Origin: Bacteroidales bacterium
Lineage (GTDB): Bacteria; Bacteroidota; Bacteroidia; Bacteroidales; VadinHA17
Reading direction: 5' to 3'
DNA length: 48,968 bases
Assembly (NCBI GenBank): GCA_021163295.1
Contig: JAGGXD010000037.1
Span: forward strand, 1 to 48,968
Shown here: positions 6,158-45,216 of the stretch, piece by piece
How positions within the stretch are numbered: position 1 is the first letter of the stretch
Layout of the letters: each line of letters begins with the position of its first letter
Program-made: the position numbers and the translations under genes
Notes under the pieces: model-generated
Databases searched by the model: none
What the model was told of the DNA's origin: nothing
What the model saw: only the letters and a program-made list of their open reading frames with translations

Positions 6158-8796
6158 TAAACAAAATCATACTCACAGGTGCACTGTTTTGTATATCAAT
6201 TAGCGTATTTGCTCAAAATACAATAAAAGGAACGGTTAATAATGAGGAGAACGAATCATTGATAAATGCTACAGTAGTTCTTCTTAATCCGGCAGATTCT
6301 ACAATGAAGTATTTTGGTGTTACCAACAAGAATGGATTTTATAAGATTAAAAACATCAAAGATGGCAACTATATAATGCAATTCTCATTTGTTGGAGCAG
6401 ATATGCTAACAGAAAATATTACTATTCCCGCAGAAAAAGGAGAAGATTTTGGAAAAACAGTGTTGAATCAGAAATCTATTGATGAGGTGAAAATTATTGG
6501 GGAATATGTTCCTATTCGTTTTAGAAGCGATACTGTTGAGTTTAATGCAAAAGCCTTTAATACAAAATCCGATGCTGTGGTTGAAGATCTTTTAAAAAAG
6601 ATACCGGGCATCGAGGTTGATGTATCAGGTAATATAAAAGCCCTGGGAGAAGAGGTTCAGAAAGTGCTTGTTGATGGCAAAGAATTCTTTGGCAGAGACA
6701 AAAAGGTGGCAACCAAAAACCTCCCTGCTGATGCAATTGATAAGGTTGAGGTATACGATAAAAAATCGTATGAAGCTGAATTTACGGGAATTGAAGATGG
6801 TGTACGTGATCGCACTATTAACCTGGAGTTACTGGAGGAGGCGAAAGCAGGAAACCTGGGAAATTTTGAAGCAGGAGCAGGAACAAATGAACGATACACG
6901 GCAAATGGCAAATTATACAGGTTCAAGAAAACTACTCAAATGGCTGTATTGGGCATGTATAATAATATCAATAAGTTTGGATTTTCAGCTCAGAATATGG
7001 GTAAATTTGGCACCCAAATTAAGGGATTAAATACTTCCGGTGCCGGCGGACTTAATATTTCATACAATCCTACCAATTTCAATAAATATTATATAAGTTA
7101 TCTGGGTAGCCTAAGAAATAATGTGCTTGATCAGGTTACAAATGGTGAATATTTTTCAGACCAGGGTTCTTATAACCAATCTGTTATAATGGATGAGGAG
7201 ACCAGAAACAATCCACACTCTTTCGATTTCGGCATCCATCATCGCTTTAACCCTGATAATAATCTGATAATTACCGGAAATTTTGACCTTATAAAAAATG
7301 ATTTAGATAGAATAACCAATACAATCACATATACTGATATTGCTGCCGTAAATGATCTGAACAGTATTAATATTCAACTTTCAGATATACTCTCGGGTTC
7401 TGCCAAAGCATCATATATGACAAAGCTTAATGAGGGCAACACACAGTTTAAAACAGGGTTTAATGTTTCTTTGGATAACCACTTCTCCAGTTCAGACCTG
7501 AACAATACTACTCATATCTATAACCTTGACACTCTGATCAATACAAATCAATTTCTGGACAAGCAAACAGACAGATTTTCTGCCACTTTTAATCCCTCTT
7601 TTGTACAAAAAATTGCTAAACGATGGTTCATTTCTCCTGAAGTCAGATTGGGAATGAATAATGAAAAAATAGATCAGAAACAGGGAAATTTACTTACTGA
7701 CAATATCCCAATTGATTCTCTTAGCCCGGAGTTTATTCGTGAGCATAGATTTCTTGAGACAGGCCTTACCTTCAGAAGAAGTTCCGCCAATTCTCAATTC
7801 TATATAACAGCAAAGACAACATGGAATGAATTTGGGTCAAAATTATGGGATGTAAATAACAACAATGGAACCTGGTTTCATATTCTGCCAACCGTGTTTT
7901 ACGAAAAAAGGATCCGGGCAGGAAGGCGTATAAAAATGAGATATAGTACAAATGTAAATATACCATCTGCCGGCCTGCTTTTACCTGTATTCAACACAAC
8001 CAATCCACTATTGCTTTTTCATGGAAACAAGAATCTTAAGCCGGAGTACTGTCATCATCTCTTTACGGAACTGTCTATCTTCGATCAGTTTTCCTTCACT
8101 TTCCTGCATTTACGTTTTGGGGGGACTTATACAAAAGATAAGATTAGCTGGTCTCAAACAATTAGTGAAGACCTGGTTCAATTGAATTCTCCGTTAAACG
8201 TTCCCTGGGACTATACCGCCTATGGATATTTGAATTTTTCTACTCCGATAAGAAGATTAGGTGTTAAAGTTAATTTGAAATTAAACGAAAGCTGGCACCG
8301 GGGAATGAATATTGTTAATTCTGAGGATAATACCTTAAATTCGCTGTCACATAGTATAGATCTAAATATTGAAAATCGTTTGAAAGAAAAAATTGATGCA
8401 AGAATAGGTAGCTCCATTTCCCTGACAGATACGAAATATTCGATTCAGAATAAACTTGACAATCTCTATTTTAATACCGTTTACTATGGTGATCTTTACT
8501 ACAATCCTAATGATCACTGGAATTTTGGTTTTACTGCAAGGATTACAAATTACAATTCCAAAAGCCTTAACGAATCTTTAAGTTTGCCACTATTAGACGC
8601 CACAATAAGTTATTATTTCATGAAAGGTAACAGGGCTGTTATAACTTTAAGAGGCACTGATCTACTGGACAGGAACAAAGGTTTTGAGCAAATTAGTGAT
8701 ATCAATTACCTGATGCAGATAAACAGTAATACCATTGGTCGGTATATAATGCTTTCATTTAAATACAGGTTAACTGCAATGGGATATGAAAAGTGA
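6154..8796 (+). CDS. Outer-membrane beta-barrel protein with carboxypeptidase-like and plug domains
   Basis: 880 residues. Signal peptide ends near VFAQ (about residue 21). Residues ~22-100 form a carboxypeptidase-regulatory-like domain (INATVVLLNPADST... FYKIKNIKDGNYIMQFSFVG). A TonB-plug-like segment (VEDLLKKIPGIEVDVSG, VLVDGKEFFGRD) covers ~125-215, and the rest is alternating beta-barrel sequence ending in an aromatic-rich strand. This is the OMP_b-brl_3/TonB-dependent-receptor-like architecture common with GLPGLI partners. No TonB box is obvious, so active energised transport is not certain. Substrate unknown. It directly follows the GLPGLI gene and precedes the decayed two-component genes, which may once have regulated it. 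Confidence 0.85.
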   Translation: MINKIILTGALFCISISVFAQNTIKGTVNNEENESLINATVVLLNPADSTMKYFGVTNKNGFYKIKNIKDGNYIMQFSFVGADMLTENITIPAEKGEDFGKTVLNQKSIDEVKIIGEYVPIRFRSDTVEFNAKAFNTKSDAVVEDLLKKIPGIEVDVSGNIKALGEEVQKVLVDGKEFFGRDKKVATKNLPADAIDKVEVYDKKSYEAEFTGIEDGVRDRTINLELLEEAKAGNLGNFEAGAGTNERYTANGKLYRFKKTTQMAVLGMYNNINKFGFSAQNMGKFGTQIKGLNTSGAGGLNISYNPTNFNKYYISYLGSLRNNVLDQVTNGEYFSDQGSYNQSVIMDEETRNNPHSFDFGIHHRFNPDNNLIITGNFDLIKNDLDRITNTITYTDIAAVNDLNSINIQLSDILSGSAKASYMTKLNEGNTQFKTGFNVSLDNHFSSSDLNNTTHIYNLDTLINTNQFLDKQTDRFSATFNPSFVQKIAKRWFISPEVRLGMNNEKIDQKQGNLLTDNIPIDSLSPEFIREHRFLETGLTFRRSSANSQFYITAKTTWNEFGSKLWDVNNNNGTWFHILPTVFYEKRIRAGRRIKMRYSTNVNIPSAGLLLPVFNTTNPLLLFHGNKNLKPEYCHHLFTELSIFDQFSFTFLHLRFGGTYTKDKISWSQTISEDLVQLNSPLNVPWDYTAYGYLNFSTPIRRLGVKVNLKLNESWHRGMNIVNSEDNTLNSLSHSIDLNIENRLKEKIDARIGSSISLTDTKYSIQNKLDNLYFNTVYYGDLYYNPNDHWNFGFTARITNYNSKSLNESLSLPLLDATISYYFMKGNRAVITLRGTDLLDRNKGFEQISDINYLMQINSNTIGRYIMLSFKYRLTAMGYEK

Positions 8797-25239: not shown

Positions 25240-26058
25240 ATGTCGAAAAAAAAGAAAAATGAAATGTCGTTCCTTGGTCATCTTGAAGAACTGAGATGGC
25301 ATCTTTTACGGGCATTTCTGTCAATTTTCATTATTGCTATTGCAGCATTTGTTTTTCGTGAAATTATTTTCGACAAAATAATACTGGCTCCAAAGTCTCC
25401 TGATTTTTTAACAAACCGGATGTTTTGTGCATTTAGTAAAATTGTAAATGCCCCGGCCCTTTGTATAAATTCCGACCCATTTGAAATAATTAACATTCGC
25501 ATGGCAGGGCAATTTACCACCCATATTATGGTCTCTATTCTTACAGGTGTGATTCTTGCATTTCCATATATCTTTTTCGAGTTATGGTCATTTGTCAAAC
25601 CCGCATTATATTCAAAAGAAAAGAGTTATACGCGCGGTGCGGTCTTTTTCAGCTCATTACTTTTCCTTCTTGGAGTCTTATTCGGCTTTTATATTATTAC
25701 ACCATTATCTGTAAACTTTCTCGGTTCATATAATGTTAGTGACCAGGTTGAAAATCAAATTAATCTTACTTCATATATTTCAACTGTAGCATCAGTTACT
25801 CTGGCTAGCGGCATTGTTTTTGAACTTCCTATATTAGTATTCTTTTTAACTAAGATTGGTTTAGTTACACCATCTTTTCTAAAAACATACAGGAAACATT
25901 CTATTGTAGCAATCCTGCTTCTTTCTGCAATTATCACACCTCCGGATATTTTCAGCCAGGTTCTTGTCTGTTTTCCTCTATTATTCCTTTATGAAATCGG
26001 AATAGGTATTTCAAAAAGGGTCCTGGCCAAAGAAAAAGCAAAGTTTGAAGAAGGCTAA
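25240..26058 (+). CDS. tatC: Sec-independent translocase subunit TatC
   Basis: 272 residues with the TatC hallmark N-terminus SFLGHLEELRWHLLR (Glu16-Glu17) that binds the twin-arginine signal, six hydrophobic helices, and the first periplasmic loop carrying the PxExF-like region (TNRMFCAFSKI...). It forms the receptor core that moves folded proteins across the inner membrane. No tatA/B is in the window. The Tat-signalled oxidoreductase at 3806 is a likely client. Length is slightly above the usual ~250. Confidence 0.93.
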   Translation: MSKKKKNEMSFLGHLEELRWHLLRAFLSIFIIAIAAFVFREIIFDKIILAPKSPDFLTNRMFCAFSKIVNAPALCINSDPFEIINIRMAGQFTTHIMVSILTGVILAFPYIFFELWSFVKPALYSKEKSYTRGAVFFSSLLFLLGVLFGFYIITPLSVNFLGSYNVSDQVENQINLTSYISTVASVTLASGIVFELPILVFFLTKIGLVTPSFLKTYRKHSIVAILLLSAIITPPDIFSQVLVCFPLLFLYEIGIGISKRVLAKEKAKFEEG

Positions 26059-26063
26059 GGCTC

Positions 26064-26088
26064 CCGCCTACGTTAAAACTTCGGCGGA
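26064..26088. repeat. Dispersed palindrome, copy A
   Basis: Arms CCGCC (26064-26068) and GGCGG (26083-26087), internal-loop triplets TAC/TTC and loop core GTTAAAAC. It begins six bases after the tatC stop. It has the same architecture as the copies at 42424-42449 and 32084-32117, with compensatory stem changes. It may also act as a weak terminator or mRNA end. Confidence 0.75.
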
Positions 26089-26128
26089 CAAGAAGGCAAG
26101 TTAAGAGAAGAAAAGAAAAAAGGATTAT

Positions 26129-32068: not shown

Positions 32069-32083
32069 CTTTTACTTTCTTTG

Positions 32084-32117
32084 TCCACCGTATCCGCCAG
32101 CTGGCGGAGAAGGTGGA
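32084..32117. repeat. Dispersed palindrome, copy B, with a nested palindrome
   Basis: Outer arms TCCACCGTA (32084-32092) and GAAGGTGGA (32109-32117) correspond to the arms of the copies at 26064 and 42424 with a compensatory base change. Instead of the usual 8-nt loop, the centre is the perfect 16-bp palindrome TCCGCCAGCTGGCGGA (32093-32108). It lies between thyA and folA. Confidence 0.8.
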
Positions 32118-42423: not shown

Positions 42424-42449
42424 TCCTCCTTCGCTAAAGCTACGGAGGA
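42424..42449. repeat. Dispersed palindrome, copy C
   Basis: TCCTCC-TTC-GCTAAAGC-TAC-GGAGGA, 26 bp, beginning three bases after the ruvC stop. The arms pair exactly. The triplets TTC and TAC face each other (GAA/GTA on the other strand), as in the copies at 26064 and 32084. Confidence 0.8.
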
Positions 42450-42796
42450 CACAGTGAGAAGAGGTGATATGGTGATACTATGTTATTCTTCAAACCGGAT
42501 GTCTGAAATATACACTTATGTATCCACTTGTAATATCAGCAATTTAATAAGTCCGGGAAATGATTTTGATTGTTAGGATAAATAGTATAAATTTGAAAAT
42601 AAAGCAGCAGACCGAAAGATTGCTAAACCAAACCTGTATTATGTTAAATAGACTGTATCTATCTTATTCTGTTTTGGTTAATAAAAATAAAGGTCTGTTG
42701 ATAAAGGCAATATAACGGTAATAGGGTTGGGTTAGCAAGTAGTTACCAACTATAAAACAGCATTAACAATTAACATCTCACAATTGGACTATTTTT

Positions 42797-43512: not shown

Positions 43513-45216
43513 TGTGCAAAAACTCCCTTAAATTGTTCATAACCTTTTCGCCTTGCATTTCCCCTTTAATCAAGTATTTACTAACTTGAGTTGTATTCAT
43601 TAATCATAAAACCATGGAACATAAATAAGGATCTGACAGGAATCATATGTTCATGTTTTGTTTGGAGAGTGCCATAGCCAAGGATTCATTTGTTCGGATG
43701 GTAGATACCTTTGTTGATGCTATTGATTTGGAGAGCTTTGGATTTGCTCATGTTGAATGTCAGGAGGAAGGGCGCCCCCCTATCATCCTTCCATCTTGTT
43801 GAAGTTGTACTTGTATGGGTATCGATATGGCATTCGAACAACCCGAAAACTTGAACGGGAGGCCCGGACCAACATGGAAGCTATGTGGCTACTTTCCGGA
43901 CTTCGTCCGAAGTATAGAACCATTGCAGACTTCAGGAAAAATCATTCCAAAGCCTTTCGTGAACTTTTCCGAAGATTTGTTTGTCTTTTAAGAGACTGGG
44001 AATTGATAGATGGCGAGACGGTAGCTATTGATTCATTTAAAATCCGGGGAAACAACTCCTTAAAAAACAATTTCAACGAAAAGAAGCTAAATCATCACCT
44101 TGCTTATATAGATACGCAAATAAGTGAATACGAGGCTTTACTTGATGCTGCAGATAAAAAGGAAGACAAAAAAGAGATTAAGGAAAAAATTCAGGAACGC
44201 AAAGAAAAACAAACCAAATACAAAAAGGTTAAAAAAGACCTTGAAGCCAGCGGTGAAGAACAAATTTCACTGACAGATCCGGATGCCCGTGCAGTGATAT
44301 TGCAAAGGAATATTGTTAATGTTGGTTATAATATACAGGCTTCTTCTGATTCGAAACATAAGTTTCTGGTTGAATACGATACCGGGACTGTAAATGATAC
44401 GAACGCATTAGCAGACATTGCCATAAATACAAAAGAACTCCTGGGGGTTAAGCAGATGAATGCCCTGGCCGATAAAGGTTATCATACCGGGGCAGAAATA
44501 CACAAATGCACAGAACAAGGCATAACCACATATGTTTCTCCCAAAGCTCCATCAACAAAGGATATAGGTTTGTATCCTATATCAAGTTTTACCTATGATC
44601 CGAAAAACGATTTGTATGTGTGTCCACAGGGACATCAAATGCGAACCAACAATACATTGTACCGACATAGTGATAAAAGAAAAGGTAAAAAAGGGTCATT
44701 TAGATTTAAAAGATATACCACCCCGGCATGCAAAACCTGTACAAGCAGACATTTATGTACCAGAAGTAAAACCAATGTAAGATATATTGACCGAAGTGAA
44801 TATGCAGAAGTAGTTGAAGCAAATGCGGAAAGGGTACATAAAAATCCGGAATACTACAGGCAAAGACAACAGGTAACTGAACATATGTTCGGGACCTTGA
44901 AGCGACAACGTGGATTTACTCACACACTCGTTAGGGGAAAGGAGAATGTTTTAGGAGAAGTTGGCTTGATGTTTATCGGGTACAACTTAAGCCGCTGTAT
45001 TTCTGTAGTTGGTATGGAGAAATTTATTAAGGCATTGAAGGAGTGTTGTTTAGTTGTATTTCACATTAAAATACGGCTTATTTTAAGACAATTTAGACGC
45101 TTTTTAGAAAAAAATGTAAAACACCTTCCAGACAAGATGAAATATTTTTATGCCGTTAAACCTTTTCTATTTAATCCTAAGGACTTATATTTATACGTGA
45201 ATTGAGTTTTTGCACA
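43513..45216 (+). mobile_element. IS1182-family insertion sequence
   Basis: 1704 bp bounded by perfect 13-bp terminal inverted repeats TGTGCAAAAACTC (43513-43525) and GAGTTTTTGCACA (45204-45216); identity stops beyond them. It contains one IS1182-type transposase frame, interrupted near its start. No clear target duplication flanks it. It is inserted between the ParDE and HigBA modules. Confidence 0.88.
43614..45205 (+). pseudogene. IS1182-family transposase, stop codon and frameshift near the N-terminus
   Basis: Bases 43757-45205 encode 482 residues with the DUF772-like N-terminal part (LLKLYLYGYRYGIRTTRKLE, KYRTIADFRKNH), a DDE core (VAIDSFKIRGNNS, ALADKGYHTG, EHMFGTLKRQRGFTHT) and a Cys cluster (CKTCTSRHLCTRS). 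The family N-terminus lies upstream in another frame: ATG 43614, in-frame TAA at 43626, then FVRMVDTFVDAIDLESFGF up to a C run at 43785-43790. There, one C fewer than needed shifts the frame (GRPP continues as YHPSILLK in the new frame). Probably inactive unless translation frameshifts or the C run is miscalled. Confidence 0.82.

Follow-up and report, generated by a model that had tools for sequence, protein, structure and literature searches.

Three short palindromes lie between genes in this window, by which we mean the whole 48,968-nucleotide stretch analyzed (contig JAGGXD010000037.1, assembly GCA_021163295.1, lineage Bacteroidales; VadinHA17). What is the repeated unit, and does it move? 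An earlier note, made from the sequence alone, placed copies at 26064-26088, 32084-32117, and 42424-42449 and read them as a REP-like or mobile palindrome family. All three are present at those places (Table 1). The observation is confirmed, with the corrections given below, and the interpretation is supported by copies across the family, an exact empty site, and nested self-insertions.

Table 1. Copies of the element in the window and the flanks of copy A
Feature	Coordinates	Strand	Sequence	Tail (positions)	Length	Position
Copy A	26063..26092	+	26-base imperfect palindrome CCCGCC-TAC-GTTAAAAC-TTC-GGCGGA	CAAG (26089-26092)	30 bp	After tatC, before lptB
Left flank of A	26050..26062	+	GAAGGCTAAGGCT			End of tatC (stop TAA, 26056-26058) and short hexamer array; the target
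Right flank of A	26093..26107	+	AAGGCAAGTTAAGAG			Interrupted target resumes; aligns to the G006 empty site
Copy B	32079..32117	-	TCCACC-TTC-TCCGCCAGCTGGCGGA-TAC-GGTGGA	CAAAG (minus strand, 32083-32079)	39 bp	Between thymidylate synthase and dihydrofolate-reductase-like gene
Copy C	42424..42454	+	TCCTCC-TTC-GCTAAAGC-TAC-GGAGGA	Probably CACAG (42450-42454)	31 bp	After ruvC; exact match to the family pattern

The dihydrofolate-reductase-like gene next to copy B is named from model matches below the cut-offs. About 200 bp downstream of copy C (42545-42745) recur in other parts of the genome with 87-90% identity, and farther on, at 43757-45205, there is an IS1182-family transposase gene.

The repeat unit and its fold

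The unit is a hairpin followed by a tail of 4 or 5 bases. It measures 30 to 31 bp, except in copy B, which has a longer core. From the outside in, the hairpin has a 6-bp outer stem, a 3x3 mismatch loop that reads TWC/TWC on one strand and GWA/GWA on its complement, a 2-bp inner stem, and a loop of about 4 bases. The stem mostly opens with YCC. The tail is usually CARG or CRAAG. The earlier note wrote the unit too short, as a tail present on one strand only follows the hairpin. In aligned copies this conserved tail often reads CAAG, CAGG, CGAAG, or CAAAG. CARG was found in 67/122 pan-phylum copies (its C was imposed by the search pattern), and CRAAG is frequent in the window's genus.

The design TCCNCC...GGNGGA holds for copies B and C. 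The outermost 5' base of copy A (26063) is a C that faces an A, and five of its six outer pairs form. The facing triplets GTA and GAA, said to be constant, are present in all three copies, but copy A has them in the opposite order (GAA first, minus strand). In the family at large most triplets have the form GWA, with GAA/GAA and GTA/GTA among the pairs found. Copy C starts 3 bases past the ruvC stop codon, and copy A starts 4 bases past the tatC stop codon. Folded as single-stranded DNA, the GWA strand is the more stable one in all three window copies (-6.0 versus -4.5 kcal/mol for A, -13.5 versus -11.2 for B, and -6.0 versus -4.1 for C).

The variable base N and its partner do change in step, as first described. 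The free N-N pair was Watson-Crick in 86/122 pan-phylum copies (42.7 expected) and in 17/25 copies from viral contigs (10.0 expected). The signal is weaker when each distinct 26-mer is counted once (26/51; mean 15.0 and maximum 27 in 10,000 shuffles). Other arm positions also covary, as in TACGCC/GGCGTA, TCCCGC/GCGGGA, and GCCTCC/GGAGGC. Arm-to-arm correction of a DNA palindrome also yields covarying arms, so covariation alone does not prove selection for the fold. The internal mismatch loop is left uncorrected while the arms are kept paired, which argues for recognition and is a stronger sign of constraint than covariation. On the GWA strand, this loop may form two G-A pairs around the W-W position.

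The core varies at the site of copy B. It has 8 bases (GCTTTCTC) in the G003 ortholog, 14 bases in G001 and G002, and 12 bases in G004, where the copy lies within a longer insertion. G005 and G006 have no element there. Such differing cores at one orthologous site, like the covarying arms that template-switch correction yields, would suit quasi-palindromes of local origin with no mobility. That origin is hardly credible when the pattern and tail recur in many phyla, insertions of 30-31 bp behave as units, and the mismatch loop stays uncorrected. Stretches of 40 bases that resemble copy B (query 7180-7219) occur elsewhere in all seven searched genomes of the genus. One lineage variant, TCCCGCTACGCTAAAGCTTCGCGGGA, lies between C-rich and G-rich stretches that resemble a longer palindrome (L158, L159, and L160, from G030).

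The covariation had also been taken to imply a folded RNA or single-stranded DNA. Orientation to the genes bears on the RNA option. Copies facing a gene by its 3' end were sense and antisense in nearly equal numbers in four sets (15 versus 15, 32 versus 27, 24 versus 26, and 6 versus 6), as judged from mechanical gene calls. Such evenness does not favor the RNA option, and the element would act, if at all, mainly as DNA. A structured RNA signal (a terminator, 3' untranslated region stabilizer, or regulator) under selection and without mobility would agree with the covarying arms, with the short distance of copies A and C from the genes that they follow, and with the sense orientation of all three window copies to the preceding gene. 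It would also agree with the copies within 30 bases of a gene 3' end in two Bacteroidota sets (L001-L051 and L082-L161), where 17 were sense and 4 antisense. The same near-stop count gave 6 sense and 7 antisense copies in the pan-phylum set and 2 and 1 in the viral set. We consider such a signal very improbable, given the even orientation over all distances and, as described below, an exact empty site, the nesting of copies, and copies inside genes. No T run follows the stem in any of the three window copies, and neither the T run nor the fixed orientation of an intrinsic terminator is seen. An Rfam search of the window matched only a tRNA.

Unit boundaries and duplication-free insertion

At the end of tatC, copy A splits a hexamer array that is whole, without the insert, in the orthologs from G006 and G004. 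We removed 20 to 45 bases at 20 starting points and scored the results against both orthologs. A 30-base removal scored best against each, starting at 26063 for G006 and at 26060 for G004; the hexamer array permits this shift. Copy A thus provides the insertion/empty-site pairs that the earlier note had asked for. For copy C, the search yielded no ortholog in which an empty site aligned.

Copies nested in other copies define the same unit. We deleted the hairpin plus t bases (t = 0-11) from each of 259 copies, a set that excludes those less than 60 bases from a locus start or less than 100 from a locus end, and checked the junction for another copy. The junction rebuilt one in 9/259 cases (seven at t = 4, one at t = 5, and one at t = 11). 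Seven are true internal insertions, six with t = 4 and one with t = 5; the remaining t = 4 case is an adjacency. The seven inserts are 30 or 31 bp long. Six follow GCT and one follows GCC. Four of the seven carry the tail CAAG, and the other three carry CTCG, CGGG, and TGAAG.

Tandem arrays with units of 6-8 bases give a further measure of the boundaries. All scorable arrays (9/9, not all separate, as L184 supplies two and L287 and L293 share one record) were in phase only with a tail of 4 bases (five arrays) or 5 bases (four arrays) when t = 0-10 was tried. No target duplication was found at the junctions of the copy A site, the nested copies, or the tandem arrays. The junctions rebuild their targets without the duplication that marks a MITE of DDE transposons.

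CT or CA stood directly before 40/79 CARG-tailed copies, the only copies counted, so that about half do not follow CT or CA; the frequency in the flanks was 11.5% (p about 1e-17). A preference for the tips of other palindromes is real but rare. The flanks form an inverted repeat in 6/259 copies, and mixed flanks gave 0.5 on average and never more than 2. Close pairs (less than 200 bases apart) were head-to-tail in 10/15 cases, and a few pairs overlap or abut. That the element is mobile as such is nearly certain.

Three observations were made by eye. L166, outside the set of 259 copies, looks nested. An Acidobacteriia genome with 71 matches has several copies in palindrome tips (e.g., GGACAGGCGA/TCGCCTGTCC), and a Bradyrhizobium copy interrupts another palindrome. 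Tandem arrays with a period of 7-8 (GGTTACG, GATGCGAT, AAAGTCC, and CAATATT) surround many copies in L082-L121 (G001, G002, and G004), L122-L141 (G033), L184, and L287. In G033, the array units to the left and right of a copy often differ.

In G001-G004 the core type (GCT or GTT) at first seemed to go with the target (GCT or GTTA). This link was dropped because copy A, with core GTT and target GCT, contradicts it and because the G001-G004 copies share flanks.

Distribution and the search for a mobilizing enzyme

A genome search finding only the three loci of the window had been named as a refutation of a dispersed family. The window's own genome (a 3.49-Mb draft in 272 contigs) contains 11 places within 3 mismatches of TCCNCCTWCGYTNAARCTWCGGNGGA, and the reversed control gave 0. 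Matches within 2 mismatches were present in 31/60 genomes (relatives and the window's own; controls, 0). Among other families of the order, each represented by one genome, 1/24 had a match, so within the order the element is largely a feature of the family to which the window belongs.

Its reach beyond the order is wide. Scanning one genome from each species with the strict pattern gave at least 118 stretches, and the 80 titles listed include at least 13 phylum- or class-rank groups. Among these are Patescibacteria, Omnitrophota, Planctomycetota, Verrucomicrobia, Kiritimatiellota, Lentisphaeria, Acidobacteria, Armatimonadota, Deltaproteobacteria, Nitrospira, Acidimicrobiia, Alphaproteobacteria, and Bacteroidota. 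The pan-phylum records are mostly MAGs, whose contigs may be misbinned. The carriers also include isolates of Bradyrhizobium, Mesorhizobium, Geomonas, and Sediminibacterium. Strict matches were found in 12/392 sampled Bacteroidota genomes (the window's own included) and in 34/192 sampled Patescibacteria genomes (three of them previously known carriers), with 0 in both controls. IMG/VR contained 26 stretches with the element. Two variants were searched against plasmids; one had no match, and the other had two weak matches (27 bases at 89% and 19 identical bases). One variant searched against phages had no match.

Duplication-free insertion after CT or CA, together with a hairpin that keeps its mismatch loop, fits REP/IS200-type transposition. 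According to the available text of PMC8266576, cleavage in vitro occurs at CT with Escherichia coli TnpAREP and at CT and CA with TnpAMb, and E. coli REPs need their mismatch bulge. We propose that each repeat is a copy of a non-autonomous mobile DNA element, 30-31 bp long, that is moved in trans by a Y1 HUH enzyme, and we give this proposal an even chance of being right. A transposase of the TnpAREP/IS200 type would recognize the folded single strand of the element and cut and rejoin it in trans. The target would probably be single stranded during insertion. Recognition would depend on the paired arms with their kept mismatch loop, and the far cut would fall at the tail. Horizontal transfer may be the route between phyla.

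The same element could instead be moved by other machinery, either another recombinase or a template switch linked to replication, in which a short single strand is copied. We regard this as quite possible, if somewhat short of an even chance. The search for a linked enzyme bears on it directly. No clear copy lay beside any of the 87 Y1_Tnp matches (87/87) in 30 carrier genomes, where the flanks covered reached about 1.5 kb at most and were shorter near contig ends; L546 has a doubtful hit beside a Y1 match, without the usual core. A first set, comprising 30 of the 102 Y1 matches in 40 relatives (carriers and noncarriers), also had no copy nearby, and at L071 an unrelated chance hairpin lay by the Y1 match. 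A tblastn search with 18 Y1 proteins returned two loci with both a copy and a Y1 gene, L211 (164 bp apart) and L273 (about 3 kb apart). The L211 copy is doubtful, as it sits among hairpins that apparently belong to that Y1 gene.

Y1_Tnp was not detected in 8/30 carrier genomes. One of the carriers, the isolate Sediminibacterium roseum, has 15 copies and no detected Y1_Tnp. In carriers of this kind, either the enzyme was lost, or the copies arrived on transferred DNA, or another enzyme acts. Both these genomes and the missing linkage count against a Y1 HUH enzyme, as does the absence of the GTAG tag of classical REPs. On the strand that bears the CT/CA target, the hairpin begins at the 5' end of the unit, so there is no room for an IS608-like 5' guide. 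Some copies lie in tandem arrays or at the tips of palindromes, places at which a polymerase or nuclease would be expected to act. Other machinery would not so readily account for the preference for CT and CA, which are the known TnpAREP cleavage dinucleotides, for a kept mismatch loop resembling REP recognition features, or for the lack of target duplication, which fits HUH insertion.

Several Y1_Tnp genes of this Bacteroidota family (L073, L078, L057, L058, L071, and L077) are flanked by different perfect hairpins of their own, such as CACAGGGCGTTGCCCTGTG, CAACCCCGGATGGGGTTG, and CAGGCATTGAAATGCCTG. These hairpins look like separate REP families.

Known palindromic repeats and copies inside genes

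The element shares features with several known systems. It resembles REPs and their TnpAREP (RAYT) enzymes, or REPtrons, in its size, its E. coli-type hairpin with a mismatch bulge, and its dispersed copies, and it may share a cut site at CT or CA, which its insertion sites favor. The irregular-stem hairpin in many dispersed copies is that of a REP, but no clear copy was found within about 1 kb of a cognate tnpAREP. It also differs from REPtrons in having no GT[AG]G foot; on the GWA strand most copies have CYTG or CTTYG there. In addition, no linked Y1 gene was found, the same sequence occurs over many phyla, and close pairs are mostly head-to-tail. The element is not a GTAG REP, and it lacks defining traits of CGTC REPs as far as the available text of PMC3733652 and PMC6006769 gives them.

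CGTC REPs, which include Neisseria dRS3 and Rickettsia RPE-4 and RPE-6, were described by Di Nocera et al. in 2013 (PMC3733652). In the available text of that paper they resemble the element as short hairpins with copies inside genes and in other palindromes, with no known dedicated transposase and a range of five phyla. They differ in stem and tail sequences, in the 3x3 mismatch loop found here, and in the arrangement of neighbors. The element would be an unusual subfamily of them if the tail CGAAG, which is CTTCGTCC on the other strand, were read as CGTC, and if CAAG or CAGG were read as TGTC, a variant mentioned in the same text (PMC3733652). Membership on these grounds seems unlikely to us. 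A CGTC, TGTC, or CCTC tag is present only when the first stem bases count as tag, and the TC would then be part of the stem. CGTC stems almost always open with AT and most of their tails fit CCA, according to the available text (PMC3733652). Here neither an AT stem start nor such a tail is present, and TGG ahead of the unit, which would give a CCA tail, is missing from the 12 most frequent base triplets. CGTC REPs are also mainly head-to-head in that text (PMC3733652), in contrast to the head-to-tail pairs described above.

Single-strand transposition of the IS200/IS605 type is similar in its hairpin ends, lack of target duplication, and insertion after a short preferred target. It differs in that here one hairpin makes up the whole unit, with no transposase gene and no visible 5' guide on the target strand. 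Quentin et al. (2018; PMC6006769) describe hairpins without GTAG for TnpAY1 subclass 2.6 and class 3. In the available text these atypical hairpins occur in Bacteroidetes (subclass 2.6) and in Planctomycetes, Acidobacteria, and Proteobacteria (class 3, foot CnGA). They flank Y1 genes, unlike the copies here. The element may be identical to a subclass 2.6 or class 3 hairpin, a comparison made by description only (PMC6006769).

The TAACTGA intergenic heptamer arrays of some Bacteroidetes and Cyanobacteria (PMC4679880) recall the seven-base arrays that host many copies here. Their unit sequence is different, and the string "palindrom" is absent from the text of that paper. In a partial survey of the literature, limited to article text exclusive of figures and supplements, no paper was recognizable as describing the element.

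The range of many known REP families is a single species or species group, and GTAG types often lie beside their own enzyme. What is new is the unit itself, along with its boundaries, its reach across phyla, and the apparent lack of a linked enzyme. An identical-looking unit in at least 13 groups, with clean boundaries and a TnpAREP-like target, offers a compact model for REP movement, which is still unsettled.

Some copies lie within genes. A unit of 30 bp is ten codons, so that such copies can keep the frame. Of 174 copies, 95 fall in open frames that are 150 codons or longer, although many of these frames are probably spurious. In-gene insertions were compared with relatives for two genes. 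The valyl-tRNA synthetase (ValRS) of one Patescibacteria genome (G458) reads EGEA-PSFAKATAGK-WIQDEDTLDTWFSS, with the decapeptide in frame. Among family relatives, 9/10 alignable sequences have no residue at that site and one has a large unrelated domain; an eleventh relative has no alignable ValRS. The threonyl-tRNA synthetase (ThrRS) of another Patescibacteria genome contains PSFAKASEGK. A ten-residue gap is present there in 25/25 alignable relatives of the order, with one further relative lacking sequence at the site and three loci unaligned. Protein Data Bank alignments of ValRS, TsaD, alanine racemase, and IspE have gaps of 5-17 residues near the insert. They are compatible with insertion but less exact.

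The ValRS and ThrRS copies thus share in-frame presence in protein genes with the Rickettsia palindromic elements (RPEs), which are also palindromic mobile DNA. RPEs are about 150 bp long in the available text of PMC10969869, unlike the 30-31 bp, ten codons, and many phyla of the element. PARCELs are palindromic coding repeats of 25 residues (available text of PMC2996958). In-frame insertion as such is therefore not new, since in-gene REPs, RPEs, and PARCELs are known.

These copies bring us to a broader reading, which we offer tentatively and hold at somewhat less than an even chance. The element may be a single 30-bp parasite of single-stranded DNA type that circulates in most environmental bacterial phyla, is moved by some enzyme common to many of them, and repeatedly writes decapeptides such as PSFAKASEGK into loops of essential proteins. 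It would then be near the smallest unit able to hold a recognition hairpin and a cleavage tail. Essential genes can accept an in-frame insert of ten codons, which bears on annotation and on protein evolution in Patescibacteria.

The ValRS at L430 (G503) has a large domain, hydrolase-like by eye, in frame at the position of the G458 decapeptide.
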